64,000 bases of DNA. Source: Bacteroides sp. Its GTDB lineage: Bacteria; Bacteroidota; Bacteroidia; Bacteroidales; Muribaculaceae. Positions 46,749 through 64,000 of this stretch are shown piece after piece. A program made the translations under genes and the position numbers. Below the pieces are notes generated by a model, which was given only the letters and a program-made list of their open reading frames with translations, ran no database searches and was not told the DNA's origin. Position 1 is the first letter of the stretch, and each line of letters starts with the position of its first letter. Where the stretch lies: positions 1 through 64,000 of the forward strand of contig JAAVCG010000005.1 of assembly GCA_014802435.1 (NCBI GenBank), given 5' to 3'.

Positions 46749-47435
46749 TCAGTTCATGATTTTTGTTTTATGGCGGATTGTCGTAAGTAGTTTTTGCAGG
46801 ATGGTTTGGGAGGAGATAGTTAGGTCGGTTTTGATGGGGTTATGGAAATATTTAGAGTTATTTGAGGATATTTCAATGTAATAGTTGCCTTGGGAGTTGG
46901 GCGAGCGGGAGATGGTTTTGACAATTCCAGTACCTATTTCGGGGATGGTTATTTGTTGGCCCGGGGTTATTTTAGATGCGATGTTTTGCGGGATATATGC
47001 GTAGTAGATTGCGTAGTCGGCCGGGCTTTCGTTGGCCACTTTAAGAAGTTCGGTTCCTGCGGGAATCGGGGTGTCTTCGTGGACGGGACCTATGTAGGTT
47101 ACACGTCCGGCTATTGGGGCGGTCGCGCAGGTGCCGTTGGTAAAGGCGAGCAGCGTGTCATTGGCTTTTACCGGGGCGTTGTCAGCGACATATATATGCT
47201 TGATTTTTACTGCCTCGGGCATTGAGATTATGGCGCTTCCGTCTGTGGCGAGGGGTGTGAGTTCGATGTCATAGCGTTCGGGAAGGCGGATGGTTGCACA
47301 CAAAGCCAGCGCGCCAATCAGTATCAGCGCAATCAGGGTTATCCCCCATCGCTGAATCCAAGAGGGGACTGCGCCCATAAGTTCCTGTACTTCTTCGCTA
47401 TGCAGGTCAAGGCCTTTCAGGTTTGGTTCGCTCAT
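46749..47435 (-). CDS. minimal HlyD-family periplasmic adaptor of the peptide exporter
   Basis: The 228-residue protein has a short cytoplasmic start, one membrane helix (WGITLIALILIGALALCATI), a lipoyl/biotinyl half-motif pair (KIKHIYVADNAPVKANDTLL and CATAPIAGRVTYIGPVHEDT) and a beta-barrel part. The long coiled-coil hairpin that reaches TolC in usual HlyD proteins (400 or more residues) is absent. It overlaps the C39 ABC gene by 4 bases, so it is the adaptor of that exporter. It is the last gene of the peptide locus. Confidence 0.85.
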   Translation of the reverse strand: MSEPNLKGLDLHSEEVQELMGAVPSWIQRWGITLIALILIGALALCATIRLPERYDIELTPLATDGSAIISMPEAVKIKHIYVADNAPVKANDTLLAFTNGTCATAPIAGRVTYIGPVHEDTPIPAGTELLKVANESPADYAIYYAYIPQNIASKITPGQQITIPEIGTGIVKTISRSPNSQGNYYIEISSNNSKYFHNPIKTDLTISSQTILQKLLTTIRHKTKIMN

Positions 47436-49645
47436 GAGAGTCCGAGTTCAATTTGGTTTTTAACGAGTGTATAATATGTTCCTTGGCGGGCGAGGAGTTC
47501 GGAGTGCGTCCCTTCCTCGACCACTTTTCCGTGGTCCATGACGATGATTTTGTCGGCGTCAACAACGGTGCTTAGCCGATGGGCTACGATGACTACGGTC
47601 TTGCCTTTATAGAAGGTCTTGAGATTCTGCATGATGATGCTTTCGTTGTAGGCGTCGAGTGAGTTTGTCGCTTCGTCAAAGAAGATGAATTGCGGATTTT
47701 TGTAGACTGCGCGGGCAATCAGTATACGCTGTTTCTGACCGGAGCTGATGCCGTTACCCTCCATACCGATTTTGGTGTTATAGCCCATCGGCAGGGAAAG
47801 GATAAAGTCCTCGATATTGGCCACCCGGACGGCATGGGCCAGGCGCTCGGGGTCTATCTCGTCGGTCGAGACGGCGATATTGCGGGCTATGGTGTCAGAG
47901 AATATGAAACCCTCCTGCAAGACCGAGCCGGAGACCTCGCGCCACTTGTGAGGATTAAGCATATTGAGCGGCGTCGGACCGATTTTTATAGAGCCGTGCA
48001 TCGGTTCGTAGAAACCCTGAAGGAGTTTTACTATTGTGGTCTTGCCGCTTCCGCTTGCGCCGACAATGGCAGTCACTTTGTTCGGCTCGATGGTGAGGCT
48101 TACCCCGTCGAGGGCGTAGTCCCGCTCGGCCCCGCTATAACTGAATTTAACGTCTGTGAAGGTAATAGGCTTGTCCGTAGGTACTTCGGTCTGCTTTGAT
48201 TCGATGTCCTGTTCCTCGTCAGGCTGTTTGTGGATTTCGTTGAGGCGCTCAAGGCTGATTTTCGCATCCTGGACAGCTTGGGTGAGTCCGATTAGGTCGC
48301 CGATGGGGGCCGACAGTTGACCGATAATGTAGGTCATTGACATCATCATACCGAGGGTCATCTGCCCGTCAATCACGGCTTTGGCGGCGATGAAGGTTAT
48401 CAGGATGTTGGTGCTCTGCGTGAAGAAAGCGCTGCCCACTTGCTGAATCTGGCCGATTGCCAATCCGCGCAGCCCGACTTTGAAGAGTTTCACCTGAATC
48501 CGCTCCCATTCCCAGCGTTTCTGGCGCTCGCTGTTGTTGAGCTTGATTTCCTGCATGCCCTGAATCAACTGGATTACGGAACTCTGCTCGCTCGCCGAGA
48601 GATTGAAGCGTCGGATGTCAAGTTCGCGACGGTATTTCATGAAGCCCCATATCCAAAGGACATAGAGAGCGTTGCCGCCGAGGAAAATCAGCAGGATAGG
48701 CATATAATAGTAGCCCAAGATGGCGGCGAATATCAGGAAGTTGAAGGCTGAGAAGATGATGTTCAGCGAGTTGTTCATCAGCAGCGACTTGATGCGGGCA
48801 TGGTCGCCGATACGCTGCATCAGGTCGCCGGTCATCTTCGAGTCGAAGAAGCGCAGTGGCAACCTCATCAACTTTATCAGGAAGTCTGAAATCAGCGCGA
48901 TGTCAATCCGGGCGTTGACATGAAGTGTAATCCAACTTCGCAGAAACCCGACCATCAACTGCGAGACAAACAGAAAGAGCTGAGCCATCAGAATCATCGT
49001 TACGAACCCGACGTGACGGCCGCCGATGCCCACATCGACAAGCGCCTGAGTCAGAAACGGGAAAATCAACTGCAAGACGCTGCCGATGAGCAACGCCAGA
49101 CCCAACTGGACGAACTGCCGCTTATATGGCAGCAGGTAGCGTCCGAAGTGAGCCAGTCCGCGCCAGGTTGTGTCGCGGCTTTCGCCGGGCGATTCGTAGA
49201 ACTGAGGCGCCGGCTCAAGCAGCAGAACCGTGCCTAACTTTTCTCCATTGGAGTTGCCGGAACTGACCCAGCATTTTTCAAACTCCTTGGCGTCATAGTC
49301 AACAATCTGCGATGCCGGGTCGGCTATGCGGTAAATAGTCTTCCCGCGGCGTTTAAACACTTTGCAGAGGACTACAAAGTGTTTATAATTCCAATGGAGG
49401 ATACAAGGCGTCGGCGCCGCTTTGGTCAAGCGTTCAACAGAAGTGCGGATACCCGTCGAGCGCATACCGATGCTTTCGGCGGCATCGCTTAGTCCAAGCA
49501 TTGAGACACCCTCGCGGGTAATGAACGACCTCTTCTGAAGGGTCTCCAGTGAGTAATGCCGCCCGTAGTACTGCGCAACCATCCGCAGACAAGCCGGGCC
49601 GCAGTCCATCATATTTAGTTGATGATAATGAGGAAACTTTCGCAT
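47432..49645 (-). CDS. C39-peptidase ABC exporter (bacteriocin-type)
   Basis: This 737-residue transporter trims double-glycine leaders and exports the peptide. The peptidase domain (1-~135) has QLNMMDCGPACLRMV with Cys15, HWNYKHFVVL with the catalytic His, and IADPASQ. A six-helix membrane domain (about 165-440) and an ATPase follow: Walker A GASGSGKTTIVK, signature GISSGQKQRILIARAV, Walker B FIFFDEATNSLD. I chose the ATG at 49645, which overlaps the OMP1 stop as TAATG. The ORF-track extension upstream lies inside OMP1 and is not family-like. It is the only intact exporter seen for the two precursors. Confidence 0.95.
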   Translation of the reverse strand: MRKFPHYHQLNMMDCGPACLRMVAQYYGRHYSLETLQKRSFITREGVSMLGLSDAAESIGMRSTGIRTSVERLTKAAPTPCILHWNYKHFVVLCKVFKRRGKTIYRIADPASQIVDYDAKEFEKCWVSSGNSNGEKLGTVLLLEPAPQFYESPGESRDTTWRGLAHFGRYLLPYKRQFVQLGLALLIGSVLQLIFPFLTQALVDVGIGGRHVGFVTMILMAQLFLFVSQLMVGFLRSWITLHVNARIDIALISDFLIKLMRLPLRFFDSKMTGDLMQRIGDHARIKSLLMNNSLNIIFSAFNFLIFAAILGYYYMPILLIFLGGNALYVLWIWGFMKYRRELDIRRFNLSASEQSSVIQLIQGMQEIKLNNSERQKRWEWERIQVKLFKVGLRGLAIGQIQQVGSAFFTQSTNILITFIAAKAVIDGQMTLGMMMSMTYIIGQLSAPIGDLIGLTQAVQDAKISLERLNEIHKQPDEEQDIESKQTEVPTDKPITFTDVKFSYSGAERDYALDGVSLTIEPNKVTAIVGASGSGKTTIVKLLQGFYEPMHGSIKIGPTPLNMLNPHKWREVSGSVLQEGFIFSDTIARNIAVSTDEIDPERLAHAVRVANIEDFILSLPMGYNTKIGMEGNGISSGQKQRILIARAVYKNPQFIFFDEATNSLDAYNESIIMQNLKTFYKGKTVVIVAHRLSTVVDADKIIVMDHGKVVEEGTHSELLARQGTYYTLVKNQIELGLS

Positions 49646-52614
49646 TATTTTCGCTTGGGGGTGATTGTCAGGTTGTATGTCAGTGATAGGAGGACGTAGG
49701 AAGGCTGGGTGTTGTAGCGGGTCATACTTATGGATTGAGTGTCGATTGAGCGCGAGAAGGTGGGAATTTGTTGGAGGATGTCGTAGCCGTGGATTTTGAT
49801 CAGCCAATTGCGGGCAAACTTCTTGCTGAGCGAGAGGTTCCATACCCAGTATGGACGGTCAATGTCGGAGTTACCGTAGCCGTAGCGGGTGTTTAGCGTC
49901 AGGGAGGTTTCGAGTCCGATGCCCCAGGGGAGTATGCCTTGGGCTTCGAGTGAGTAGTCAATGTCAGAGTAGCGGGCATTGGCAAATGAGTATTTTTCAG
50001 AGATTTGTCGGTTGAAGCGCATATCAACGTTTGCGCGGATATTGAAGTCGCGGATTGAGAATGACAGCGTGAATCTGTCGCCGAAAGTCCGGTAGTCGGA
50101 GCCTATCGTACCGGGATTGTCTATTTCTGATGAATAATCTACATTATGGCGGAGGCTATGGGAGAACTGGTTTTGAATGAAGAATCGGTTGCGAGGTCCG
50201 AAAGATTGACTGTAACCGAGCGACTGGGAAGTTGACCGGTTGCCGTTAACGTTCATCGGGGTTGAGATAATAGCTCCGGTTTCGGGGTTTAGGAATCGGG
50301 CTCTGGAAACGGCGTCATCAACTTTGCGGTAGTCGATGGACGCACTGATGGAGTGATGTCTTTTGCCGAACGACTTACGGTAGCTTAGCGAGTGGACCCA
50401 TGAACGGGTGTCTTTCAGATTCGGATTTCCCCTATAAATGTTCATCGGGTCAGTGGTATCTTCCTGATCATTGAGCCAGCGCATCTGAGGTAGAGTAAGG
50501 TATGTTGAGAACGAATAACTTAACCCTAAAATGTCAACTTTGGCCGAAGGAATCCACATTTCGGTATATTTCCGTAGGTTGATATGGCTGTGAACTCTGT
50601 TTTCTTGATATTGCCGGTAGTTCAGTTCATATTTGGAGTCAAGAATTATGCTCAGGTTCCAAAATCGGAGTCCAAGGTTTGCGCCGAATTTGTTGATATT
50701 TTCGGTTGAGCGGGAGTCATAACTGTTTATTTCGTCAAGAAGCATAGCCGACGAGCGGGTCAGCAGAGCCGGTTCCAGTTTGGCCTGATTGTCATAATAG
50801 CGGTTGAGGTCTCCCCGGTTGTCGTGGATAGAAAATAAATAGTCGATGGCGCCCTCAATGCTGAACTTTTTGTAAGTATATTTCGCCGAGCCGACGCTGA
50901 GGGTCAGATTCCCGGAGTTGTAGGTTCGCCGCTGTTCTGCCTTGGATATTTGGTTTAAATTATTGACAGCATCGTCAGGATAGATAATCTGTTGGGCGGA
51001 ATTATAGTCCAGGCGGGATGTCCGGAAGTTATAATTGCCATCAAATTTCATTCGGGCAATCGCGGGAATCAAGTAGGGGGCGAGCGCGTAACTGAGGTGG
51101 CCATTGCCTTCATAACTCCTTGACCGTTCATCGTTCTTCAAGGTCTGACGATATTTTATCGCCTCGGTCAGAGGGTCGGCCGACTCGCGATTTTCGAGGT
51201 CCGATTGGCGCGAATTGCTGCTTTCGTCTCTCTTTTCCCGTTCGGTATTCAGGTCAATGGAGGTCTTAAAAAGTCCGAAGCGGAAATGACGCGATAAAAT
51301 ATTATCCCAGCGCAGATCCATTGCGCGTGTCTTTCGGGCGTTTTCGTATGTGCCCAGACGAGAGCCTTCCGTAAAGAGTTCGGTTGTCTCACTTTGTGAT
51401 TCATAAAATCTTTTCCGGCCGCTGACGGTTAGATTCGAATTGAAGCCTTCTCTTTGCTGGTCTTTCCAATAGGTTTTAAATGTAGCACCCGCTTTGGCGG
51501 ACGTGACGAGCCCGGTATGAATGTCGGAAGCTGACCAACGGCCAGAGCCGTCGACCGACGCATCACTATTGACGTTGTTTCCCTGCAGATAAAGCCCATA
51601 CTCGACTCGGGAGTCATAGACCAAGGCGAAGATTCGGCCTAACCATTTCAACGACGGGTCATTGCTGACGTTCACTCCCCCACCAAGAGTATAGTTCGTA
51701 ATCAGCCCTCGGGAAAACTCCTTTTTCAGGTTAACATCAAGTACCAGCGGGTCATTTTCCTTGTCCCGCTCCTCGACTTTGCGGCTGTAGGCAATCTCGT
51801 CGGGCGCTTTTTTGTAGACCTTTATGTCTTTGACGGTATAGTGTGGTAGATTTTCAAGGGCGACTATTGGGTCTCCATTAAAAAACTTCTTACCGTTGAC
51901 AAGAAGTTCGCTGACCGGTTCACCATTGATGGTAATCTGACCACGGCGCGACAGAGAAGCCCCGGGCAAAGCCCTGATCAGGGCGTCAAGCATCGAGCCG
52001 TCGGGCAGATTGAACGCGTCGGCATTGTATACCAGCGTATCGCCGTTATGATACATCTTGATTTTCGTCGCCGTAACGGTCAGTTCCTTCAGCCTCAACG
52101 ATTTATCCTCGGGATAGATTCCATATTTTCCCGCATATAAGTAGGCGATATTGTCATAGACCTTTGCCTCATTCGTTTTCAGACGCATTGTGCGCCCCTC
52201 AAATCCCGGTTTTGTCAGACTGACAATCAGGACACTGTCATAAGGCACCGTAACTGAATATCTCACCGTATTGTTCATCGGGTCACTTAAATCAGGCAGG
52301 TCCATCCGGTCCCCCCTTTCCTTGGCGCGCTTTGCCTCGTCCATCATCTCCGTCTTGCGGTCAATCCAGCCGATGGAATCCACGGAGAATCCACCCGAAA
52401 GGCCGCTGACCGCCACCTTTACCCCGCTCAGAGGCAACTTATTCGACGAATTATAAATTTTCATCGAAAACTGAATCGAATCCGGTGTTTGCGCCTTATC
52501 CTGTGCCTTAGAGACAAGGAGAGTGCAAAAGATTATTAAGAAGGAAACATATAGTCGTATATGACCATATGTCCTATATTTAGCAAATTGTCGACTATAT
52601 GTTTCCATTGGCAT
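49645..52614 (-). CDS. outer membrane beta-barrel protein OMP1 (PF14905-like)
   Basis: The 989-residue protein has a hydrophobic signal (LYVSFLIIFCTLLVSKAQ), a carboxypeptidase-regulatory/Ig-like domain (about 45-170) and a TonB-receptor-like plug (about 180-285: LTVTATKIKMYHNGDTL, then VNGKKFFNGDPIVALENLP). A long beta-barrel ends in YVLLSLTYNLTITPKRK. It is 25-35% similar by eye to OMP2 and OMP3. No TonB box was identified. Its n-region is unusually long (about 22 residues) and contains a strong inverted repeat in the DNA. It lies 10 bases after precursor 1 and directly before the exporter, so it is the likely outer membrane partner of that peptide. Confidence 0.88.
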   Translation of the reverse strand: MPMETYSRQFAKYRTYGHIRLYVSFLIIFCTLLVSKAQDKAQTPDSIQFSMKIYNSSNKLPLSGVKVAVSGLSGGFSVDSIGWIDRKTEMMDEAKRAKERGDRMDLPDLSDPMNNTVRYSVTVPYDSVLIVSLTKPGFEGRTMRLKTNEAKVYDNIAYLYAGKYGIYPEDKSLRLKELTVTATKIKMYHNGDTLVYNADAFNLPDGSMLDALIRALPGASLSRRGQITINGEPVSELLVNGKKFFNGDPIVALENLPHYTVKDIKVYKKAPDEIAYSRKVEERDKENDPLVLDVNLKKEFSRGLITNYTLGGGVNVSNDPSLKWLGRIFALVYDSRVEYGLYLQGNNVNSDASVDGSGRWSASDIHTGLVTSAKAGATFKTYWKDQQREGFNSNLTVSGRKRFYESQSETTELFTEGSRLGTYENARKTRAMDLRWDNILSRHFRFGLFKTSIDLNTEREKRDESSNSRQSDLENRESADPLTEAIKYRQTLKNDERSRSYEGNGHLSYALAPYLIPAIARMKFDGNYNFRTSRLDYNSAQQIIYPDDAVNNLNQISKAEQRRTYNSGNLTLSVGSAKYTYKKFSIEGAIDYLFSIHDNRGDLNRYYDNQAKLEPALLTRSSAMLLDEINSYDSRSTENINKFGANLGLRFWNLSIILDSKYELNYRQYQENRVHSHINLRKYTEMWIPSAKVDILGLSYSFSTYLTLPQMRWLNDQEDTTDPMNIYRGNPNLKDTRSWVHSLSYRKSFGKRHHSISASIDYRKVDDAVSRARFLNPETGAIISTPMNVNGNRSTSQSLGYSQSFGPRNRFFIQNQFSHSLRHNVDYSSEIDNPGTIGSDYRTFGDRFTLSFSIRDFNIRANVDMRFNRQISEKYSFANARYSDIDYSLEAQGILPWGIGLETSLTLNTRYGYGNSDIDRPYWVWNLSLSKKFARNWLIKIHGYDILQQIPTFSRSIDTQSISMTRYNTQPSYVLLSLTYNLTITPKRK
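52543..52606 (-). repeat. 15-bp perfect inverted repeat at the 5' end of OMP1
   Basis: GGAAACATATAGTCG (52543-52557) and CGACTATATGTTTCC (52592-52606) are perfectly complementary with a 34-base loop, starting only 8 bases after the A of the OMP1 ATG. In RNA the stem is followed by UUCUUAAUAAUCUUUU. A hairpin at this place could damp translation or transcription of OMP1 behind precursor 1. Confidence 0.8.
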
Positions 52615-52624
52615 CTAAGTTGCG

Positions 52625-52903
52625 TTAGTAGCCTTTACCGTTAAATTCGATCGAGAATGAACCGGAGTATGATTCACACTTCTTTGTGATGTTTTCGTTG
52701 CATCGACTTGCGCATGCAGTTTCACAACCAGCTGCATCTTTTGCGTCGGAAATAGTTAACGAACGTGTGTCAGGGTCTCCTAAAAGATTATAGGAGCACT
52801 TGCAGACAGGATTGGTTAAATCGCCTGCCAGGATGCCTTTGAGTTCCTCCGGGGTCAGAGGGGTGCCGATGAGTTCGGCAGCAGGAATGATGAGTTTGCT
52901 CAA
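52625..52903 (-). CDS. peptide precursor 1: double-glycine-type leader, six-Cys core
   Basis: The 92-residue precursor has a 27-residue leader ending EELKGILAG, with hydrophobic residues at -4, -7 and -12 and Glu at -8, the C39 double-glycine pattern except Ala at -2. The predicted 65-residue core has Cys at 34, 36, 60, 64, 68 and 76 (CxC, CxxxCxxxC, C) and the ending CESYSGSFS. The leader is almost identical to that of precursor 2, but the cores differ. The start codon is TTG, where precursor 2 has ATG. It is placed between the GT-GT-MT gene and OMP1. The mature activity (toxin, signal or other) cannot be read from the sequence. Confidence 0.85.
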   Translation of the reverse strand: MSKLIIPAAELIGTPLTPEELKGILAGDLTNPVCKCSYNLLGDPDTRSLTISDAKDAAGCETACASRCNENITKKCESYSGSFSIEFNGKGY

Positions 52904-52940: not shown

Positions 52941-54809
52941 TTAGTGAGGCTTTTGGGCCTCGATTGTTATTGATTCTTTTAGGTATTGTTCTTTGGGGAG
53001 GTAGGGATTGTGTTTGTTGACGTTTTGCAGTTCCTGATGGGTGCTTTCGTTCGGAGAAGTGAGGTTTATATGGTCAAAACCTGATTCGGAGAGGAGAGTG
53101 CAGATTTCTGAGACAAGATGGAGGTAGGCCTTGCTGAGTCGGGCGATGAAAGCATTGATTTGTTTTGAATCAGGCATTTCGCGCAGAGCATCGGCGCGAT
53201 AGAAGGTCAGGCGCAGTGTGCCTCCGGGTGAAAGGATACGGAAACATTCGCTTAAAACTTTCTTGAGCCTTTCAGGTCCGAAATTTTCAATGAGATGCTC
53301 GGCAAAAATGAAGTCAAAGGAACTGTCCGGGGCCGGAATCGGTTGGGTCACATCAAGAAACGTCACTCCAAAGTCCGGTTCAACGTCAGTGTTGAGCCAT
53401 CCGGGCAACTGATTCATCCCGCAGCCCAATTGTAGCGCCTTTGGACCGTCGCCGGCAAGATATTCGGCAATGCTCACCGGGTTGGGTTGCTCCGCCGCAG
53501 TCTTGAACGCCATAGGATAATGGCGCAATTTGACGCGGGCATTGTCGAAGTGGCGGCGAATCATGGAGTCATGGTTGTTTGACTCAGTGATGTCCGAATA
53601 GCCGAAGTCGGTTTGCTCGGAGATGAATGGAACGGTAACCATCTTGGCGGTCAGAAGGGCGGATAGTTTCTCATCGGCCACGTCGCGCAGGCTGAACGGA
53701 GCGCTGAGTATCAGGTCGTAAGCGTTGCGGTAAATGACGATGAACTGTGTACACCAAAATCGGTCAATCCACGCCACACCGCCCGGTAGGGGGACGAGGT
53801 TAGAGAAGTCACCGATGCCGCCCGAAAGCATCTGCGCACCCATTGCTCCGGCGAGCATTATCTGATGCAGAAGGCGCTCGCGATTGTATGCTTCCGTAAA
53901 GAAGTGGTCGTCCTCACATATCAGCACGAAGTCTTCATCGCTCTCCTTGGCTTCGGTGATTATTCGACAGATACTTTGCCAAAGGCCGATAGCGCCGATT
54001 TCGTGGCGCGACGCCTCGACGATATGCAGGTCAAATTCCGGACGGCCCTCAAACTCCTTGCGGATATGCTCCAGGCGGTCTGTTCGCTCCGGAAGGTTGA
54101 TGACGTAAGTGGGGATGAACGCGCGGCTTACGTCGGCCGACATAATGGCGCGCAGGGTATCGGGCGATATGGCTGAGTAGTGATTACGGACCTTATGCAG
54201 CTGAGCAAGAAGGCTTTCATTCTTCTGGAAAAAGCGAGTTACGCGCCCTTCCTCCTCGTTGATACTGGTAGCGTCGGAATAGCCAAACTCGCGCTGAATA
54301 CTGATATAAGGCGCCATAACATATTTTCGTTTGGCCAAATAGGAGAGTTGAATATCAACGGCATAACCCTCAGTGGTCTTTGCGGCAAGAATCTTAGGGT
54401 AGCAGCGGCGGAAAATCACCGTAAACTGCATCCCGTTAAACCAGTTGACCCAAAAAAGTCCCGGCGCAACCTCAACGGGATTGCGACAAACGGACATTCC
54501 ACCCGACAGCAGGTCGGCGTCAAGACTCTGCGCAAGCCGGATATAGTGCAACAATGTATCCCGGCTATAAGCTTCGGTAAAGGCATGGTCATCCTCGCAG
54601 AAGATGAAAAACTCACTTCCCCGGCGCTCCTCTTCCTCGACTATGCCGTAGAAAGTCTGCCACAGCCCATAGGGACCGTTGCGATGCTCGATTGCCGGAA
54701 CGATATGCAACTCAAACTCATCGCGCCCCTCAAACTCGCCGATAATCGACTCCCTGCGCTCAGTCCGAGCCGCAAGATTCACAGCATATACTTGTAGTTT
54801 TTCTGTCAT
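52941..54809 (-). CDS. two tandem GT25-like glycosyltransferase domains fused to a class I methyltransferase
   Basis: The 622-residue protein has three parts. Domain 1 (about 1-225) opens VYAVNLAARTERRESI and has FCEDDHAFTEAYS. Domain 2 (about 230-430) opens TYVINLPERTDRLEHI and has ICEDDHFFTEAYN. Both match GT25 (LPS/procollagen galactosyltransferase) start and acidic metal-nucleotide motifs, so both look active. Domain 3 (about 440-622) is a SAM methyltransferase with LQLGCGMNQLPGWLNTD and ILSPGGTLRLTFYR. No signal or membrane segment is seen, so it acts in the cytoplasm. It lies between OMP2 (5 bases) and precursor 1 (37 bases), so peptide modification is the first hypothesis. A surface glycan role is the alternative. 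Confidence 0.85.
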   Translation of the reverse strand: MTEKLQVYAVNLAARTERRESIIGEFEGRDEFELHIVPAIEHRNGPYGLWQTFYGIVEEEERRGSEFFIFCEDDHAFTEAYSRDTLLHYIRLAQSLDADLLSGGMSVCRNPVEVAPGLFWVNWFNGMQFTVIFRRCYPKILAAKTTEGYAVDIQLSYLAKRKYVMAPYISIQREFGYSDATSINEEEGRVTRFFQKNESLLAQLHKVRNHYSAISPDTLRAIMSADVSRAFIPTYVINLPERTDRLEHIRKEFEGRPEFDLHIVEASRHEIGAIGLWQSICRIITEAKESDEDFVLICEDDHFFTEAYNRERLLHQIMLAGAMGAQMLSGGIGDFSNLVPLPGGVAWIDRFWCTQFIVIYRNAYDLILSAPFSLRDVADEKLSALLTAKMVTVPFISEQTDFGYSDITESNNHDSMIRRHFDNARVKLRHYPMAFKTAAEQPNPVSIAEYLAGDGPKALQLGCGMNQLPGWLNTDVEPDFGVTFLDVTQPIPAPDSSFDFIFAEHLIENFGPERLKKVLSECFRILSPGGTLRLTFYRADALREMPDSKQINAFIARLSKAYLHLVSEICTLLSESGFDHINLTSPNESTHQELQNVNKHNPYLPKEQYLKESITIEAQKPH

Positions 54810-54814
54810 TTCGG

Positions 54815-57673
54815 TTATTTCTTTTTCGGTTTGATGTCGAGGCGATAGGTGAGGGAGAGCAGGGCGTAAGATGATACTGTGTTGTAGCGGATCTCGGTGC
54901 GTCCTTGGGCGTTGACGGAGCGTTGGGTGTTGGGGAGTTGGTGGAGGATATCAAACCCTATGGCCTTGACAACCCATTGGTTACTCTTTCCGAAGGCTTT
55001 TGAGAGAGTGAGATTCCATACCCAGTCAGTGGTGTTCATCGCTTTTTCGGCATATCCGCGGCGGCAGTAGGCCATAAGTTCGGTGTCAAGGTCGATTCCC
55101 CAGACAAGGGGCGACGTGGCTGAGACGCCATAGTTGACGTCAAGGTAACTGAACGGGGCAAAAACGTCGCTGAGGCTGACAAGCCTGTTCCATTTCAGGT
55201 CAACAATGCCATTGACGCTGAACGCATTATGTCGCCATGTGAGCTTGAATTTTTCGCTTATTCTGTAGTTGTTGACTTTCAGAAGATCCAGCCCGGAATT
55301 GTTGTCGGACGAGTAATCAACACTGCGCATAAGGGTTGGTATAATAGAGTTGCTGAAATAGAAGCTCTCTCTACGGTCAAGTGCCCGCTGATATGAAATG
55401 TTACCATAGACATTGAAGTTGCCGTTGATGTTGCGAGGTTGCAGTGTTGTCAGACCCGATTGGCGGTCGTAGGTTTGTGCCAATGCAATCAAATTGTTTG
55501 CTTGTTCGTATCCGGCACTGATTGACCAGCGTTGCATATGAGGCAGACCTTCTTGACTGATTTCGGCTTTTAGATTGTGAACGGAAGCTTTCGTCAACTG
55601 GGGATTTCCCAGACGAATCAATAGCGGATTACTCGTGTCTGAAACTTGAAGCATTTCCATCATTTCAGGGAGAATCTGCCTCAAGGACCAAGATATTCTC
55701 CATCCGATTTTGGATTTATTTACGGAGTAAAGCGCGATAATTGGCTGGAAGGTGATATCATTCTTATTCAGACGAAGGAGTTCGTTATAGCGGTAATCGT
55801 TAATTGTGCGGTTATGGAATTCCAAAGGGAGGTCCATCTGGAGCTGAGCCTTGAATATCCGTAATATGAAGGAAGCTGATAGAGAGTTCTTTTTGTTAAG
55901 GCGTGTAGTACTGTAGCTATTTATTTCGTCTAAGACCCATGTATTGGCTGCTGAGGGAACTATCTGTTCTTGGAAGACGCCAGACTCAACTTCGCGACGC
56001 TTGAGCGCACGCGATCCGCTTAAATGTTCCTGCTCGTAGCTGTATGTCAGGTGGCCGTCCATATAACCGTTGATTGGTTTATCCGAACCGAAGCTATGCC
56101 TGAAAGAAAGGGGACTGAAGCTCGCTCCATAGTGATAGCTGTGGCTTGGTTGATGGCCTTGTTGCTGCTCGTCGAGATTATAAGTGGCGTTGAGAGGATA
56201 GTGGAGGTAGTCCCAATTGTTAGCGTTTTCGTTGGCAGAGTTATATTTGCCGAATACGTTGAACAGGACATATCGGTTCGCAAACTTTAAAGGGCTACGA
56301 ACTGCAAAATCGGTCGATAAAGATACGCCCCAACGCTCTTCTTTTTGGTTGTTGAAGACCTTGCGGCTATAGAGTAAAGGAGTACCATCTGTAATACCTT
56401 CTTTGCCGTCTGTTTTTTCAATATTTTCTGAGTATTTGCAGCTGTTATGATGATAGAATGCTGCGGGCTTAACATTTAGCCAACCCCAGTCCCATTTTTT
56501 GTTCATGTTGCCGTTCCATTTCAGTTCGGTTGAATTGTTGTGGGAGTTGCTCGCCGAGCGGCTGAACGTATTTCCCCCCTCGAGGTATGTCTCGGTAAAT
56601 GTCTGCCTCCCTAATTTAACGTTACGTCTCTCGGCTTGTAGAGTCGTGTTGAAACTAAGCCGTTTCGATTTGTTTTCATTGCTATAATCAACTCCGGCAG
56701 ATTTGACGGTTATTTCGCCGCTTCCAGGGTCGGTTTTTATCCAGGTTCCACTGCTTGATGCTTCGCGCGTATCGTTCAGATTATTAGCGTTGGCATATAC
56801 TGATATGCTCTGAACCGGAGTGTAATACATAGCGAATACTCGCCCTAACCACTTCAAGTCAGCGCGATCATAGAGCGTTGATCCCAGACCTAATTCATAG
56901 TTGGAAATCAATCCCTTAGCATATTCTCGCTTAAGTTTAACGTCCATAACCAATGGGTCCTCCTTTGTCTTCGCCATTCCATTGAGTCCCTTCATTTCGT
57001 CCTCTTTACGATAAACCTGAATCTTATTTACCGTATAGGCGGGCAGATTGCTCAGAGCAACGCGCGGATCTCCCTTGAAGAAGTCTCGGCCGTTGACCAT
57101 TAGCGACGATACAAACTCGCCGTTAATCGTTATGCGCCCGTTTTCGTGCAACTCTGCGCCGGGGAGCGCCTTTATGAGATTATCGAGCATCGAACCCTCC
57201 GAGAGCTGAAAAGCCGCTGCATTATACTCGATAGTATCCCCCTTCATGACCATCTTGACCCGTGTAGCCGTCGCCGTGACCTCATTCAGCAATTTGGCGT
57301 TCATTTTCGGGAACATCTCTACGTCAGGAAGCCACAAAAGAGCTCCGGGTTTTAAAGCTAATTTAGTCGGCTTAAACTCAATAACCTTATTGTCATAACC
57401 ACTTACAATAAAAGTCAATGAGTAATATTTCATCATAGGGACCTGAACAACAAATCTCCCGTTATCACCTTCTACATTGATCTTAACCGAATCTGCAATT
57501 AGTTTATTTCCTGTCGTTCGGATTTCGAAAATATGATTACCTAATATCGGTTCTCCATTAAAACCATCAATTACACTTCCGGCAAAATATACAGAGTCAA
57601 TCTTCTCTGAGTGAGTAGCAAAACAAAAGATTGAGTTCGTCAATAATAATATTATAACTAAAAATACTCTCAT
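54815..57673 (-). CDS. outer membrane beta-barrel protein OMP2 (PF14905-like)
   Basis: The 952-residue protein has a signal peptide (VFLVIILLLTNSIFCFA), a regulatory Ig-like domain (about 25-130), a plug region (VTATATRVKMVMKGDTIEYN, VNGRDFFKGDPRVALSNLP) and a barrel ending SYALLSLTYRLDIKPKKK. It is closest to OMP3 and OMP4 in the C-terminal barrel strands. It stands 225 bases after precursor 2, separated by two hairpins, and is followed after 5 bases by the GT-GT-MT gene. The likely role is passage or binding of precursor 2 product at the outer membrane. Confidence 0.88.
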   Translation of the reverse strand: MRVFLVIILLLTNSIFCFATHSEKIDSVYFAGSVIDGFNGEPILGNHIFEIRTTGNKLIADSVKINVEGDNGRFVVQVPMMKYYSLTFIVSGYDNKVIEFKPTKLALKPGALLWLPDVEMFPKMNAKLLNEVTATATRVKMVMKGDTIEYNAAAFQLSEGSMLDNLIKALPGAELHENGRITINGEFVSSLMVNGRDFFKGDPRVALSNLPAYTVNKIQVYRKEDEMKGLNGMAKTKEDPLVMDVKLKREYAKGLISNYELGLGSTLYDRADLKWLGRVFAMYYTPVQSISVYANANNLNDTREASSSGTWIKTDPGSGEITVKSAGVDYSNENKSKRLSFNTTLQAERRNVKLGRQTFTETYLEGGNTFSRSASNSHNNSTELKWNGNMNKKWDWGWLNVKPAAFYHHNSCKYSENIEKTDGKEGITDGTPLLYSRKVFNNQKEERWGVSLSTDFAVRSPLKFANRYVLFNVFGKYNSANENANNWDYLHYPLNATYNLDEQQQGHQPSHSYHYGASFSPLSFRHSFGSDKPINGYMDGHLTYSYEQEHLSGSRALKRREVESGVFQEQIVPSAANTWVLDEINSYSTTRLNKKNSLSASFILRIFKAQLQMDLPLEFHNRTINDYRYNELLRLNKNDITFQPIIALYSVNKSKIGWRISWSLRQILPEMMEMLQVSDTSNPLLIRLGNPQLTKASVHNLKAEISQEGLPHMQRWSISAGYEQANNLIALAQTYDRQSGLTTLQPRNINGNFNVYGNISYQRALDRRESFYFSNSIIPTLMRSVDYSSDNNSGLDLLKVNNYRISEKFKLTWRHNAFSVNGIVDLKWNRLVSLSDVFAPFSYLDVNYGVSATSPLVWGIDLDTELMAYCRRGYAEKAMNTTDWVWNLTLSKAFGKSNQWVVKAIGFDILHQLPNTQRSVNAQGRTEIRYNTVSSYALLSLTYRLDIKPKKK

Positions 57674-57898: not shown

Positions 57899-58153
57899 TT
57901 AACTATCTATTGCTGAGAATGAGATAGAGTAATCGTAGCAGTTCTCCGTTTTAGAACAGAGATCTTTGCATTCTGACCGGCATTCTTTTTCGGTTGTAAT
58001 GCCATTAAGTTCCTTGCCAACTCCGGTAGCTCCTAACACTTTCAGGTGACAAGAGCATGAGTAAGTGGTTGCTCCGGCAATGATGCCTTTGAGTTCCTCC
58101 GGTGTCAGAGGGGTGCCGATGAGTTCGGCAGCAGGAATGATGAGTTTGCTCAT
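57899..58153 (-). CDS. peptide precursor 2: double-glycine-type leader, six-Cys core
   Basis: The 84-residue precursor starts with ATG. Its 27-residue leader ends EELKGIIAG and differs from that of precursor 1 at one residue. The 57-residue core has Cys at 33, 35, 58, 62, 66 and 72, in the same order as precursor 1: CxCx4LG, CxxxCxxxC, C and CYDYSISFS. Spacing from Cys2 to Cys3 is 22 residues (23 in precursor 1), and from Cys5 to Cys6 it is 5 (7 in precursor 1). It lies directly downstream of the VKOR-thioredoxin gene, which fits a disulfide-rich product, and upstream of OMP2. Confidence 0.87.
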   Translation of the reverse strand: MSKLIIPAAELIGTPLTPEELKGIIAGATTYSCSCHLKVLGATGVGKELNGITTEKECRSECKDLCSKTENCYDYSISFSAIDS

Positions 58154-58403
58154 GATTCTTTGGTTTTTAAATGGTTAAAATTTAGTTGATTAGTGAGGAT
58201 TTCGGGCCTCGTTTTTGGTCAGGTGTAGAGGTAAATGAGGTCTTCGACAGTGTAGCCGGCGGGGAGTGGCTTGCCGTCAATAAGGATTGTTGGGGTCGCT
58301 GATATTCCCGCTTTTGCGGTCCATTTGTCGTGACGGATGAGTTCATCGACTATCTCCTTGGCGGTTTCCGCGGGGATTTCCTGCTCAGGAGGATTGGCAA
58401 AGG
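58139..58403 (-). repeat. duplicated segment, copy A (precursor start to VKOR 3' end)
   Basis: This segment is about 80% identical by eye to 62842-63104. It covers the start of the peptide gene, the intergenic spacer with GGCCTCG and the coding 3' end of the VKOR-thioredoxin gene. It shows that the peptide unit was duplicated. Confidence 0.75.
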
Positions 58404-59790
58404 GATGCTCCTTGGGGTGACCGTTTGTGTACCAGTCTGTTAGCAATTTCCATGTCGCTTGTTGGCCTTCAGTCTTGTAGGTTTCGACAATTCGTTTGTT
58501 TACGGGCGCGAGGTCGGGGTTGAAGTAGGTAAAGAAATATTGAATTCTGAACCCGGCGTCAATCAGTGGCTCAAGGCGCGAGTGCATCCTTCCGCACGGA
58601 TTGCAGAATGGGTTGCCGACAATGGTTATCAGCGGCAATTCCGAGTCAGGATTGCCGAAGAAGATGCTTGAAGCCTCCTCGCCCTCAACGGGATACGTCT
58701 CCGGGGAGTCACGCAGCAGTGAGTCCCAGATATGACTGTCAAACTTTATTTGGCGCAGTGATGTATTCTCCTTTTTGTCCTTCTCTGCAGCCGTATAATA
58801 ATCACTCAGATATCGCAGTGTGCTCATTATCAGCCAGTAAGCTGCGGCCAATGCCGCAAGGGCGCAAAGTAGAGGAAGAGTCAGTATAACATCCCGATAT
58901 ATGCCCCCGACAATCATGACTACGAACGCAACCCATACGCAAACCATGACCAGGAGGCAAAGCGCACACCACGACTTACGCTTAAACCCTTGGTAAGCAA
59001 CGCTCCATAGCGTTAAAGGTAGCGCAAGGGCCACGGCGATACTTACCGCTCCACCCAATCCCTGCGGACTACTAAGGAGCGTTGCCACTAAATTTACGCC
59101 GAAAAAGGCTATGCCGGCAATGCTCAGGTCAAATATTCCGAACAGTAGAGGCCCCGGGCCTGGGGATTTGTGCGGGTCAGTGCAACCGGCTGAGTTCAAC
59201 AGGCTGCAAATCTTGTCGGCAGCGGTGCTGTTGATATTCAGTTGCTTCTTAAGGAGCAAAACAGAGAGCCATGTTCCTAAAATATAAACAAGGCCGAGAG
59301 ATATGCTCAATGCCGAGAGTCTGCCGGCGACCGCTGCGCCCACAAGCAAGACAATAAGCCCGAGGCTGGACAAGACTGTCTGCAACCGATTGCTACGCTC
59401 TTCCCGGCGGTGGTCTTTCAGATTAGGTTCAGAAGAGGATTCCGATGCCTTAACTATCATTACTGTGCCGGTCCAGGCCTGCTTAAAAGTATCAAGCGGC
59501 GCCGAAAATGCACCGGATGAGGTCCGATATTTAACCTCATCGTCGGTTACCGAGGTGACTACCACGCAGTCGCCCGAGGCCTGGGCGACAAACGGACATG
59601 GAATCCGCCCAATCTGCTCCTTATTAGAAACGCGCAGCGACGTATGGTCAACGCCATAGCGGTTCAGAATCTGCCCGATGGCCCATAGCGAAGCGCCGTA
59701 AGGCATCTCCCGCTCTACTTGCCGGAGGTAGAGCGGAGTGAACGGCACTTTCAATTCCGAAAGAATGATTTCAATAATTGGCTGCGGCAT
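58219..59790 (-). CDS. degenerate C39-like domain, VKOR domain and thioredoxin domain fusion
   Basis: The 523-residue protein has three parts. Residues about 1-115 resemble a C39 peptidase fold but lack the catalytic Cys (YGASLWAIGQILNRYG) and the His (FVAQASGDCVVVTSV). A VKOR membrane domain follows (about 140-335) with helices, the loop cysteine pair CSLLNSAGC and the CALC active motif. The C-terminal part (about 370-523) is a thioredoxin-like domain with CNPC and the cis-Pro region ISATPTILIDGK. The fusion should relay electrons and form disulfides in the periplasm. It precedes precursor 2, so folding of the six-Cys peptides is the best guess; the inactive C39 part might bind their leader. 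Confidence 0.9.
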   Translation of the reverse strand: MPQPIIEIILSELKVPFTPLYLRQVEREMPYGASLWAIGQILNRYGVDHTSLRVSNKEQIGRIPCPFVAQASGDCVVVTSVTDDEVKYRTSSGAFSAPLDTFKQAWTGTVMIVKASESSSEPNLKDHRREERSNRLQTVLSSLGLIVLLVGAAVAGRLSALSISLGLVYILGTWLSVLLLKKQLNINSTAADKICSLLNSAGCTDPHKSPGPGPLLFGIFDLSIAGIAFFGVNLVATLLSSPQGLGGAVSIAVALALPLTLWSVAYQGFKRKSWCALCLLVMVCVWVAFVVMIVGGIYRDVILTLPLLCALAALAAAYWLIMSTLRYLSDYYTAAEKDKKENTSLRQIKFDSHIWDSLLRDSPETYPVEGEEASSIFFGNPDSELPLITIVGNPFCNPCGRMHSRLEPLIDAGFRIQYFFTYFNPDLAPVNKRIVETYKTEGQQATWKLLTDWYTNGHPKEHPFANPPEQEIPAETAKEIVDELIRHDKWTAKAGISATPTILIDGKPLPAGYTVEDLIYLYT

Positions 59791-59914: not shown

Positions 59915-62857
59915 TTATTTTCGCTTGGGTTTGATGTCGAGGCGATAGGAGAGAGTTAGCAGGGCATAGGCCGGCTGGGAGTTGAGGCGGGTTTCGGAGC
60001 GGCCCTGGGCGTTGAGGGTACGTTGTACGGTTGGGAGCTGTTGAAGCAGGTCGAAGCCGATGGCCTTGACGGTCCATTGCTTTGCGCTGCCGAAGGACTT
60101 ACTGATTTCGAGGTTCCAGACCCAGTCCGTGCGGTTCATAGTTGCGTCGCCATAACCGCGGCGGCAGTAGGCCATCAGGTCGGTGTCAATGTAGACTTCT
60201 CCCGGGATTTTTGCGCGTCCACCGATGCCATAATTAATGTCCAGATAGTCAAATGGCAGGAAAAGTCCGTCGAGGCTCTTCATCTGAGTCCAGCTGACGT
60301 TGACCTTGGCATTCAATTTGAAATCTGCCGAAAAGTTAAAACTCAGGCGGAAATCATCACGGATTGTCCAACTATTGACGGCTACGGCCACAGGAATGTC
60401 TGAATCTGATGAATAATCAACGTTATGTCTAAATCGCGGTATAAATGAATTGTTAAATTCGAGATTATTGTTTCGGGTCAGGAAAGAGAACGTTTCAAGT
60501 TTAATGTTTGCTGTCCAGTTTCCGTTGATATTGGCGGGTTGCCAAGTCGTAACGCCTGTTTCGCGATTATAGGTGCGCGCCATTGCCAATGCGTCGTCAA
60601 CCTTACTCCATCCCGCCGATAAATCAAACTGGGTCTTTAATCCTGTGCTTTTTTTATGACGGATGTAAGCTGATGCTGTATAAGTCTTCGCGCGCTTGAG
60701 GTTGGGGTTGCCGAGATTGGTGACCATCGGATTTGACGAGTCGCGGACATCAAGCATCTTCAGCATATCAGGCAACTCCTGATAGAAATTTCCGTCAAAG
60801 CCCCAGCTAAGCCCGGGAGTCCAGTAATCGCCATAGTCGAATTTGATTCTGGCGGAGTTTTTCCAATCATTGCGCGCAACTTCGCGCATGGTTTGCATGC
60901 GGAAGTCGGTCAGTCGACGAATTGAATATGTGGAGGCTCCCGAGAACGAAAGGCCATATTTGCCGCCAAAACTATAGGCGATATAGGCATTAATTCCGTT
61001 GTTCCATTCCCGGCGGGTGGTGTGATAACTATTTGCTTCATCAAGAAACCAACTTCCGAATTCTGACATAGAGGGCGCGTCTGAATCCGACTCTTGGAGA
61101 TTCATTTCTTCGAGAGAGCGTCGGCCGAGATTGTATTTTTGCTCATATTGATAGCCCAATCGTAAATTGAGGAATTTCGTTTCTGAAAGAGCAATCCTAT
61201 ATCTGTCCCATGATGGGGATATGGAGAAATTATAGTCTCTTGACGGGGCCAAATCATGTTGCAGGAGGTTGATGTCGCGATTCAGAATATTGGGATAAAT
61301 AATGAGGTCTGAGCTTTTGGAAGACACTCGCGAATTATTGTGAGCACCTTGGATTTCAATGCCGGCGCTACCATATTTGGATGGCAAGCAGTATAAGTTG
61401 AAGAGCAAGCGGCTCTTGACACCAAATTTTTGATCGCGGCTGAGCAGACGCTGACTGCGATAATAGAGCATATCTTGAGCAAAGTCTATTGAACCGGGGG
61501 CGGTGAAGTTCTCCGGGAGCATAGAGTTGCTTTCGGCCGAGGAGGAGGTGCGTCGGCCTGTACCTTTATCAAAGTTTATGTCCGTGCGGAACCAAATGCG
61601 CCCGATTCTATCAAAGCGGCGTGAGATTTCCCCTCCCCAGTCAATACTCCATGAACTGCGGCGAGCGGAATTCTTTGAACGGCTAAACGTGTTCCCACCT
61701 TCCATAAATTGCTCGCTTATGGCCGTTTGACCGGTCAGGCTCGTCTGGCGAACGATATTGAATGTCGTATTTATGCCGTTATAGCTTTGGTCGGCCCAGT
61801 CCGTGTTAAACTCTATTCCGGCGCGTTTGGTCGTGGTCTCGCCGGCGGAAACCTGCGGTTTATACCATTGACCTTTTGAACCGGCTTTTGCCGGGTCGTT
61901 AAGATTATTGGCCGAGGCATGAAGCGCAAGATAATTAAGTTTGGTATAGCGCATTGCAAACAGTCGGCCCATCCAGCGGGTATCCCACGCATTTTTCAGC
62001 GACGTGCCGCCACCGATTTCGCCGTTGGCAAGCCATCCGCCCATATATTCCTTTTTGAGGTTTACGTCCATGACCAAGGGGTCATTACTCTTATCGCGCT
62101 CAATGTTTCTCCCGCGGAATTCCTCCGGCTCGCGGCGATAGACCTGCACGTTTTTGACGGTAAACGCCGGGAGACTGCGCAAGGCAACTTGCGGGTCACC
62201 CTGAAAGAACTTGCGACCGTTGACCAACAGTTGATCTACAAACTGCCCGTTGACCGTAATCCGCCCGTTATCATCTAATTGCGCCCCCGGAAGTTCACGA
62301 ATCAGATTGTCAAGCATCGAACCCTCCGGAAGTTGAAAGGCCGTAGCGTCATATTCCAAGGTGTCGCCTTTCATCACCATCTTAACCTTTGTGGCCGTGA
62401 CGGTTACTTCATTCAGTCGATGTTCCTTTTGCGGGCGTCTTAGATATATTGCGCCCAACTCTACAAATGAAACCTTTTCCCCGGAGAATATCACCGATTT
62501 TTTTTCTACGTCAAACTCTTCCGTTTGATAGCCCTTTGCAGAGATTGTTACCTGATATTTGTCATGCTCGGGTACCGTTCCCTCATAGCGAACGATTTCA
62601 TAGGCTGAACGATAGCTCTCAGAAATTTCATATCCGATAGAATCTACCAACACGACTCCAAGAGAATCCCGTATAGTGATTTTTGCGTTTTTTAATGGTA
62701 GTTCCGTAACAGCGTCAAAAACGCTCCCAATTACGTTTATTGAGTTCTTTGGCTCACTGCATAGGCAGTACCCCCATATCATCATTGCGATTATTGTCAT
62801 TCCTATCCGCCTAAACGGATAGGAATGACATGTCGTTACTTTAATGAGTTTGCTCAT
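59915..62857 (-). CDS. outer membrane beta-barrel protein OMP3 (PF14905-like), start fused to a peptide leader remnant
   Basis: The 980-residue ORF begins MSKLI, the first five residues of the peptide precursors, then KVTTCHSYPFRRIG and a signal-like MTIIAMMIWGYCLC. A regulatory domain, a plug (VTVTATKVKMVMKGDTLEYD, VNGRKFFQGDPQVALRSLP) and a barrel ending AYALLTLSYRLDIKPKRK follow. The true start could be the internal ATG (MTIIAMM, 62800); the longer form would use the ribosome site of the lost peptide gene. Upstream is the VKOR pseudogene with a preserved promoter. No intact peptide gene is paired with it in the window. Confidence 0.85.
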   Translation of the reverse strand: MSKLIKVTTCHSYPFRRIGMTIIAMMIWGYCLCSEPKNSINVIGSVFDAVTELPLKNAKITIRDSLGVVLVDSIGYEISESYRSAYEIVRYEGTVPEHDKYQVTISAKGYQTEEFDVEKKSVIFSGEKVSFVELGAIYLRRPQKEHRLNEVTVTATKVKMVMKGDTLEYDATAFQLPEGSMLDNLIRELPGAQLDDNGRITVNGQFVDQLLVNGRKFFQGDPQVALRSLPAFTVKNVQVYRREPEEFRGRNIERDKSNDPLVMDVNLKKEYMGGWLANGEIGGGTSLKNAWDTRWMGRLFAMRYTKLNYLALHASANNLNDPAKAGSKGQWYKPQVSAGETTTKRAGIEFNTDWADQSYNGINTTFNIVRQTSLTGQTAISEQFMEGGNTFSRSKNSARRSSWSIDWGGEISRRFDRIGRIWFRTDINFDKGTGRRTSSSAESNSMLPENFTAPGSIDFAQDMLYYRSQRLLSRDQKFGVKSRLLFNLYCLPSKYGSAGIEIQGAHNNSRVSSKSSDLIIYPNILNRDINLLQHDLAPSRDYNFSISPSWDRYRIALSETKFLNLRLGYQYEQKYNLGRRSLEEMNLQESDSDAPSMSEFGSWFLDEANSYHTTRREWNNGINAYIAYSFGGKYGLSFSGASTYSIRRLTDFRMQTMREVARNDWKNSARIKFDYGDYWTPGLSWGFDGNFYQELPDMLKMLDVRDSSNPMVTNLGNPNLKRAKTYTASAYIRHKKSTGLKTQFDLSAGWSKVDDALAMARTYNRETGVTTWQPANINGNWTANIKLETFSFLTRNNNLEFNNSFIPRFRHNVDYSSDSDIPVAVAVNSWTIRDDFRLSFNFSADFKLNAKVNVSWTQMKSLDGLFLPFDYLDINYGIGGRAKIPGEVYIDTDLMAYCRRGYGDATMNRTDWVWNLEISKSFGSAKQWTVKAIGFDLLQQLPTVQRTLNAQGRSETRLNSQPAYALLTLSYRLDIKPKRK
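62795..62830 (-). repeat. 15-bp perfect inverted repeat at the 5' end of OMP3
   Basis: TGTCATTCCTATCCG (62795-62809) and CGGATAGGAATGACA (62816-62830) pair perfectly around a 6-base loop. The stem lies in the OMP3 n-region and includes the alternative start ATG at 62800, so it could hide that start in RNA. Confidence 0.85.
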
Positions 62858-63104
62858 GATTCTTTTGGTTAAAGTAGTTAATAGATTGATTTATTAGTGA
62901 GGCACGTGGCCTCGTTTTTGGTCAGGTGGTAAATAAGGTTTTCAACGGTGTAGCCGGAGGGGAGTGGCTTGCCGTCGATGAGGATAGTTGGGGTGGAGGA
63001 GATTCACGCTTTTGCGGTCCATTTGTCGTGACGGATGAGTTCATCTACTATCTCCTTGGCGGTTTCGATGGGGATTTCCTGCTCAGGAGGATTGGCAAAG
63101 ATTT
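62842..63104 (-). repeat. duplicated segment, copy B
   Basis: This matches copy A at 58139-58403: peptide gene start (ATG AGC AAA CTC ATT), the spacer and the 3' end of the VKOR-thioredoxin gene. The peptide gene body that should lie downstream is gone. Confidence 0.75.
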
Positions 63105-63174
63105 GCCGGAGGTAGAGCGGAGTGAACGGTACTTTCAATTCCGAAAGAATGATTTCAATAATTGGCTGCGGCAT
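62926..63174 (-). pseudogene. deleted and stopped copy of the VKOR-thioredoxin gene
   Basis: The first 24 codons (MPQPIIEIILSELKVPF) match the start of the intact gene at 59790. They are joined in frame to its last third (FANPPEQEIPIETAKEIV). About 1.3 kb, holding the C39-like rest, the VKOR domain and the CNPC motif, is missing. A Gly codon has become TGA (63004-63006) after WTAKA, and a 5-base loss near the end removes the native stop. Homology goes on past the TGA (PTILIDGKPLPSGYTVENL), so the nonsense change came on an already homologous gene. It has no function as a redox protein. Confidence 0.9.
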
Positions 63175-63414: not shown

Positions 63415-63441
63415 TTGGTGATAATGATGGAAATTTTGCAT
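63415..63441 (-). pseudogene. stub of a C39 ABC exporter start after OMP4
   Basis: Directly after the OMP4 stop, in the same TAATG overlap as at OMP1-exporter, the reading frame is MQNFHHYHQ, close to MRKFPHYHQ of the intact exporter. After this the similarity ends and a stop follows within about 25 codons. I read it as the scar of a deleted exporter gene. The match is short. The rest of the gap to 63234 shows nothing else that I recognise. Confidence 0.5.
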
Positions 63442-64000
63442 TATTTTCGTCTGGGTTTTATGTCAAGGCGGTAGGTGAGGGAGAGCAGGGCGTAGGAGGG
63501 CTGGGAGTTATAGCGGGTTTCGGTTCGCCCCTGAGCGTTGACCACCTGGCGAATGGTCGGAAGTTGGTGGAGCAGGTCAAAGCCGATGGCTTTGACGGTC
63601 CATTGCTTGGCGGAACCGAAAGTCTTGCTCAGTTGGAGGTTCCATACCCAGTCGGTCGTGTTCATTGTTGGCTCTTCGTAGCCACGGCGACAATATACCA
63701 TCAGTTCGGTTTGTATGTCGACACCCCAAAGCAATGGCGTCGAGGCTAATATTCCATAGTTTACGTGCATAAAATAAAATGGCGCAAAAACCCGGTCAAG
63801 ACTTACAAGTCTATTCCAGTTAAAGTCGACTTTGCCGGAGATGGTTGCGTTCCCCGGCGTCCATTTAAGTTCAAAGTTGTTATTAATTTGCCAGTGATTT
63901 ACTTTCAGAACATTAGGCACGTCCGAATCAGTTGAGTAGTCCGCAGAACGCAATAACTCGCCTTTAAGAGAGTTTGAAAGGTAGACCCGTTCGCTTTTAT
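63441..64000 (-). CDS. outer membrane beta-barrel protein OMP4, C-terminal part (runs off the window)
   Basis: The open frame continues to the window edge (YLSNSLKGELLRSADYS, matching YFSNSIIPTLMRSVDYS of OMP2), so the ORF-track start at 63953, a TTG, is not the real start. About 186 barrel residues are visible, ending SYALLSLTYRLDIKPRRK. It is very similar to the ends of OMP2 and OMP3, for example FDLLHQLPTIRQVVNAQGRT. The N-terminal part and its peptide partner must lie beyond 64000. Confidence 0.88.
   Translation of the reverse strand, partial: KSERVYLSNSLKGELLRSADYSTDSDVPNVLKVNHWQINNNFELKWTPGNATISGKVDFNWNRLVSLDRVFAPFYFMHVNYGILASTPLLWGVDIQTELMVYCRRGYEEPTMNTTDWVWNLQLSKTFGSAKQWTVKAIGFDLLHQLPTIRQVVNAQGRTETRYNSQPSYALLSLTYRLDIKPRRK

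Follow-up and report, generated by a model that had tools for sequence, protein, structure and literature searches.

A catalytically dead C39-like domain fused to VKOR and thioredoxin domains in Bacteroidota, with an active site predicted to face the cytoplasm

Introduction

Exported bacterial peptides and proteins normally acquire their disulfides outside the cytoplasm. Bacteroides has been described as lacking general disulfide machinery, and in the bacteroidetocin (class IIf) loci, which combine a Cys-containing peptide bearing a GG leader with a PCAT, a five-TM protein and a separate thiol oxidoreductase, the oxidoreductase is required for toxin activity (PMC6671954). Bacterial VKORs fused to thioredoxins, such as those of Synechococcus (3KP9/4NV2) and the clostridial VKOR-DsbA (PMC12453122), contain loop cysteines, a CxxC motif and a thioredoxin-fold domain. 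With respect to C39 domains, LahT recognizes its leader ~20 Å from the cleavage site (PMC6363468), while the C39-like domain of HlyB in RTX exporters has lost the catalytic Cys and tethers its substrate, indicating that a dead C39 domain is able to hold cargo (PMC8277102).

Here, we describe a protein that brings these elements together, encoded in a 64,000-nucleotide stretch of DNA from a gut bacterium of the Muribaculaceae (hereafter the window). While it shares the loop cysteines, CxxC motif and thioredoxin-fold domain of bacterial VKOR-thioredoxin fusions, it adds a C39-like domain and an extra transmembrane helix (TM0) and carries the opposite charge pattern, with an active site predicted to be cytoplasmic. 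In contrast with the HlyB domain, which binds RTX cargo as part of an ABC transporter, its C39-like domain is partnered with a VKOR and thioredoxin and is linked to short leader peptides. The window also resembles bacteroidetocin loci in its GG-leader Cys-containing peptides and PCAT, but oxidase and membrane part are combined in one protein; no separate five-TM protein/thiol oxidoreductase pair of the bacteroidetocin type was found in the window, and the four-gene set of those loci is incomplete there. We give an even chance to the reading that the fusion is a dedicated peptide oxidase with all its working parts on the cytoplasmic face, whose dead C39 domain would hold the leader while the core is oxidised, ahead of export by the PCAT.

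Results

A C39 fold lacking catalytic residues precedes a complete VKOR and thioredoxin pair

The fusion is encoded by an intact ORF of 523 aa on the minus strand (58219-59790). Pfam assigned residues 6-117 to Peptidase_C39 (E 7e-7, 29.6 bits against a cut-off of 22, starting at profile position 18) and residues 166-292 to VKOR (E 3.7e-9, 37.3 bits, cut-off 27.5), while the match of residues 376-511 to Thioredoxin_4 fell under the cut-off (E 0.044). The AlphaFold2 model (mean pLDDT 89, pTM 0.74) contained a C39-like domain, membrane helices and a thioredoxin fold, with six long helices able to span the membrane (residues 124-155, 160-183, 222-239, 245-271, 276-294 and 305-349). The C39-like domain (PF03412) comprises residues 1-117 (59440-59790, minus strand) and is followed by TM0, an extra helix relative to canonical VKORs (residues 124-155; 59326-59421, minus strand), the VKOR bundle (PF07884, residues 160-325; 58816-59313, minus strand), and a C-terminal thioredoxin-fold domain (residues 374-523; 58222-58671, minus strand) that Foldseek identified from the model as DsbG/DsbC/DsbA-like. 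The cysteine motifs are C195-SLLNSAG-C203, C275-AL-C278 and C396-NP-C399, so an earlier sequence-only reading, which had proposed a complete VKOR (CSLLNSAGC, CALC) joined to a thioredoxin (CNPC), was correct in every motif. Pfam detected no ATPase domain in the fusion, whose C39-like domain is joined to a VKOR and not to an ABC transporter, and NCBIfam holds no model for the architecture.

The same reading had proposed that the N-terminal domain is a C39 domain without catalytic Cys or His. AlphaFold2 and Foldseek confirmed a C39 fold rather than any other, with leader-bound LahT (6MPZ, TM 0.69), ComA (3K8U, 0.68) and the HlyB C39-like domain (3ZUA, 0.65) retrieved as structural matches, and the catalytic residues are gone. 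Residues 1-115 contain two cysteines (C65 and C75) and one histidine (H49), none of them at a catalytic position. An hhalign comparison against the active C39 domains of PCATs encoded in the same loci (probability 98.2, E 3.4e-14) placed D74/C75 in the column of the catalytic His and the start of the protein past the catalytic-Cys segment. Likewise, a profile of 11 long relatives aligned with PCAT1 from residue 32, beyond the catalytic Cys, through the linker to residue 181. Among 130 relatives, the Q..DCG-type catalytic Cys motif was found in none, a His near the catalytic column in five and the Asp motif in one. The first helix, which lines part of the leader groove in active C39 domains, is shortened in the fusion. 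A phmmer search of the PDB with the C39-like domain alone returned only chance matches to PLP enzymes, and an alignment profile was required instead.

The fusion gene lies in a cluster encoding precursor peptides and a PCAT

The fusion gene belongs to a minus-strand cluster that also encodes a PCAT, a probable HlyD, barrel proteins, a glycosyltransferase-25/methyltransferase and precursor peptides, and all coordinates in this section refer to that strand. The precursor gene adjoining the fusion gene (57899-58153) encodes the leader MSKLIIPAAELIGTPLTPEELKGIIAG, which fits the L-12, L-7, I-4 spacing, followed by a six-Cys core. The leader DNA of a second precursor gene (52625-52903), which starts with TTG and also specifies a six-Cys core, is 93% identical to that of the first. 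Two more precursors lie just past the window. The 27-residue leader is almost identical in all four and ends in LT(P/T)EELKGI(I/L)AG or a near variant; the cores differ and contain five or six cysteines. The PCAT (47432-49645) combines an active C39 domain (HYHQLNMMDCG; Pfam C39 2.5e-29) with ABC_membrane and ABC_tran domains; its reading frame stays open to 49843, with the C39 domain starting near 49645. The cluster thus shows the features of double-glycine-leader/PCAT systems, namely hydrophobic residues at -12, -7 and -4, an AG site and a PCAT with a DCG motif. A probable HlyD-type membrane-fusion protein (46749-47435) was assigned by eye and from its position, HlyD following the PCAT in an annotated relative; Pfam gave no match for this candidate.

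An outer-membrane barrel/plug-like protein (54815-57673) is paired with the first precursor and belongs to a repeat family with 59915-62857, its paralog in the next cassette, and 63441-64000. The 5' MSKLI of 59915-62857 looks like what is left of the start of a precursor gene that has been lost, and the true start is probably Met20. Pfam also identified an outer-membrane beta-barrel protein (OMP_b-brl_3, 49645-52614) and a glycosyltransferase-25/methyltransferase fusion (52941-54809), which might glycosylate the peptides of the cluster.

The repeated unit consists of fusion gene, precursor and barrel, and the two other copies of the fusion gene are decayed; therefore, one intact oxidase probably serves several peptides. 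In the decayed copy within the window (62926-63174), codons 1-25 are joined to ~464-521, with a stop codon. A second miniature remnant (G000:C5:70265-70519) has the same internal deletion and stop codon, so the duplication probably followed the deletion. The 5' ends of the remnants are 95-98% identical to the intact fusion gene and may still act as the promoter of the next gene.

C39-VKOR proteins occur across Bacteroidota in long and short forms

We collected 130 relatives of the fusion across Bacteroidota: 23 long forms, 69 short forms, which lack the thioredoxin domain, and 38 forms from other families, the last being C39-VKOR-thioredoxin proteins gathered phylum-wide. In the VKOR-region tree, the C39-VKORs formed one clade with moderate support (0.72). 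A match was present in 66 of 149 Muribaculaceae genomes, mostly as one short form (~340 aa) each, with long forms occurring sporadically. The window genome has three members: one short form and two long forms, namely the fusion described here and another whose neighbour is a peptide ORF with 12 cysteines. The architecture itself was already known, since PGAP labels such proteins in plasmid records "vitamin K epoxide reductase family protein". Two genes (L152:787-1938 and L192:6323-7375, both minus strand) encode a VKOR and thioredoxin without a C39 match, possibly reflecting truncation or true loss of the C39-like domain.

Short forms retain the C39 fold, and Foldseek also retrieved VKOR structures for the short form. 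Where enough upstream sequence was available to judge the neighbouring gene (66 short-form loci), a thioredoxin without a signal peptide, mostly of ~97 aa, adjoined the short-form gene upstream in 58 (e.g. L002:2389-2682, minus strand, and L071-L129), with a CPHC motif in 52 and CGHC in six. We take these to be DsbA and PDI motifs rather than motifs of reducing thioredoxins. The pairing of short form and signal-less thioredoxin is a possible general cytoplasmic oxidation pathway.

Cysteine-rich leader peptides accompany most fusions outside Muribaculaceae, but short forms no more often than by chance

Peptides were sought within 4 kb of each gene using a strict double-glycine leader pattern and a minimum of three core cysteines, with the chance expectation derived from shuffled ORFs; a loose small-peptide regex had yielded many spurious ORFs and was replaced by this procedure. 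Such peptides were found at 32 of 36 loci outside Muribaculaceae, compared with 0.6 loci expected from shuffling, and the number of core cysteines was even in 62 of 66 peptides. In two annotated plasmid loci, the VKOR gene is followed by small ORF(s), further genes and a PCAT downstream, with HlyD next in one of them. At short-form loci, leader peptides were not above chance (3/46, shuffle 1.8). The proposal that the leader is held during oxidation is partly supported by the phylum-wide peptide linkage and by the predicted common cytoplasmic side described below, but it may not extend to the short relatives.

Precursor-like ORFs at Muribaculaceae long-form loci retain an L[ST]xxE[MAQ][KR]x[IV]-like leader motif, many of them without GG. 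At seven loci (L039, L040, L041, L042, L045, L061 and L066), the ORFs have the common core C.GK...C.W....G.C.....LyC, mostly without GG, and no exporter was seen near them. No PCAT match was obtained in three genomes carrying the long form, G024 (99% complete), G096 (94% complete) and G105, the first two of which are among those whose loci retain the leader motif. Coupling to export, as first suggested for this protein, therefore cannot be the whole story if the exporter is a PCAT. Retention of a recognition helix where the cutting protease is missing is what a dead, binding-only C39 domain would predict, although the glycosyltransferases or LanC-like proteins of these loci could equally preserve the leader motif. 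Beside long forms, LanC-like domains and TIGR04157-like glycosyltransferases occur at L036:10767-12661, L043:4919-6871 and L200:10008-11042, fused to each other in L043; the glycosyltransferases score under the curated cut-off. They are a point of likeness to the GG-Bacteroidales peptide systems (TIGR04149/TIGR04157), from which the fusion loci differ in that no radical-SAM enzyme was noticed at them and the chemistry would instead be that of disulfides.

Alternatively, the C39-like domain may be a structural, oligomerisation or PCAT-docking module derived from a transporter fusion, with a cytoplasmic oxidase finding its peptide through the thioredoxin or by proximity. We regard this as a possible but doubtful explanation. 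Short forms keep the fold without leader peptides and often without a PCAT (no active C39/PCAT match was found in seven nearly complete genomes carrying the short form only), so the C39-like domain must serve at least one further purpose, and perhaps only long forms use it to hold a leader. The Pfam C39 match also begins later in short forms (profile positions 41-46) than in the long forms searched (18-24). We did not rely on this late start as a sign that the leader groove is lost, because the match begins at positions 21-45 in forms from other families and the C39 fold is retained in the short form. In contrast, the presence of leader peptides at most long-form and other-family loci, and the persistence of the leader motif in Muribaculaceae genomes without a PCAT match, argue against a purely structural or docking module.

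The charge distribution predicts an inverted VKOR

The four VKOR cysteines (C195, C203, C275 and C278) are invariant in all 130 relatives, and four transmembrane helices precede the CxxC helix in the C39-VKOR family compared with three in canonical VKORs. Lysine and arginine residues were counted in the loops bounded by the AlphaFold helices, using an alignment across members, with the C39 junction, Cys loop, CxxC approach and thioredoxin junction taken as the active-site side. The ratio of K+R on this side to K+R on the other side was 15.2:1.1 in long forms (23/23), 13.3:1.5 in short forms (69/69) and 12.8:0.6 in the forms from other families (38/38), so that all 130 C39-VKOR relatives carry more positive charge on the active-site side. 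In contrast, the ratio was 3.4:10.0 in 22 canonical VKORs from Bacteroidota, 20 of which showed the reversed pattern. For the short forms, the count given here is the alignment-based one; an automatic topology parse (39 versus 30) had picked an incorrect CxxC or set of helices in many cases.

By the positive-inside rule, the VKOR is predicted to be inverted, with its active site on the cytoplasmic side, which would bring the VKOR cysteines together with the thioredoxin and C39-like domains at the cytoplasmic face; by this prediction, the usual periplasmic or lumenal orientation is not expected in the C39-VKOR family. C39 domains of PCATs are likewise cytoplasmic. The predicted placing of dead C39 domain and oxidase together on the cytoplasmic side is what a leader-holding model requires, and the signal-less thioredoxins of the short forms would be an independent sign of a cytoplasmic active site. 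An inverted VKOR from Aeropyrum pernix was reportedly described by Hibender et al. in 2017 and is said to be a natural VKOR that acts in a second compartment through its topology, a likeness to the fusion; to our knowledge, the archaeal protein has neither a C39-like domain nor a tie to leader peptides.

An ordinary periplasmic VKOR, with the N-terminal tail translocated and every working part in the periplasm to oxidise peptides already exported and freed of their leaders, appears unlikely to us. The bacterial VKORs that we know to have been characterised all act in the periplasm, and the six predicted transmembrane helices would put N and C termini on one side, making this arrangement sterically possible. 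However, it would break the positive-inside rule in every one of the 130 relatives, whereas 20 of the 22 canonical controls conform, and it would demand that ~120 residues without a signal peptide cross the membrane. The missing signal peptide on the short forms' partner thioredoxins also speaks against it.

Discussion

In the mechanism that we propose for the dedicated peptide oxidase, the dead C39 domain would dock the leader helix of the adjacent precursor through the hydrophobic leader residues at -12, -7 and -4 without cutting it, and the thioredoxin domain would oxidise the core cysteines of the docked precursor. The loop cysteines and CxxC of the VKOR would then re-oxidise the thioredoxin, passing electrons to a membrane quinone, after which the PCAT would take the oxidised precursor, cleave it after AG with its active C39 domain and export the peptide. 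The topology, leader binding, electron flow and order of oxidation and export in this scheme are our inferences. A point against a cytoplasmic oxidase is that the cytoplasm is normally reducing. It is very improbable that the C39-like domain has become a relic without function, since its catalytic residues are lost in all members but its fold and T18, L42, Y45, P66, F102 and G108 are conserved among very divergent ones.

The predicted inverted topology extends the earlier leader-holding idea, even though the architecture is not itself new. A description of the C39-VKOR-thioredoxin architecture was not found in the open-access literature, which, given that scope, is a weak sign of novelty.

More broadly, we think it somewhat more probable than an even chance that Bacteroidota possess a dedicated cytoplasmic disulfide pathway built on an inverted VKOR, the fused form oxidising leader-tethered peptides before export and the short form acting with a signal-less CPHC/CGHC thioredoxin on cytoplasmic substrates. 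If this is true, an inward-facing, phylum-wide VKOR with a leader-recognition domain would explain how the Cys-rich peptides of Bacteroidota are oxidised, and it would constitute a natural bacterial counterpart to engineered cytoplasmic disulfide systems.
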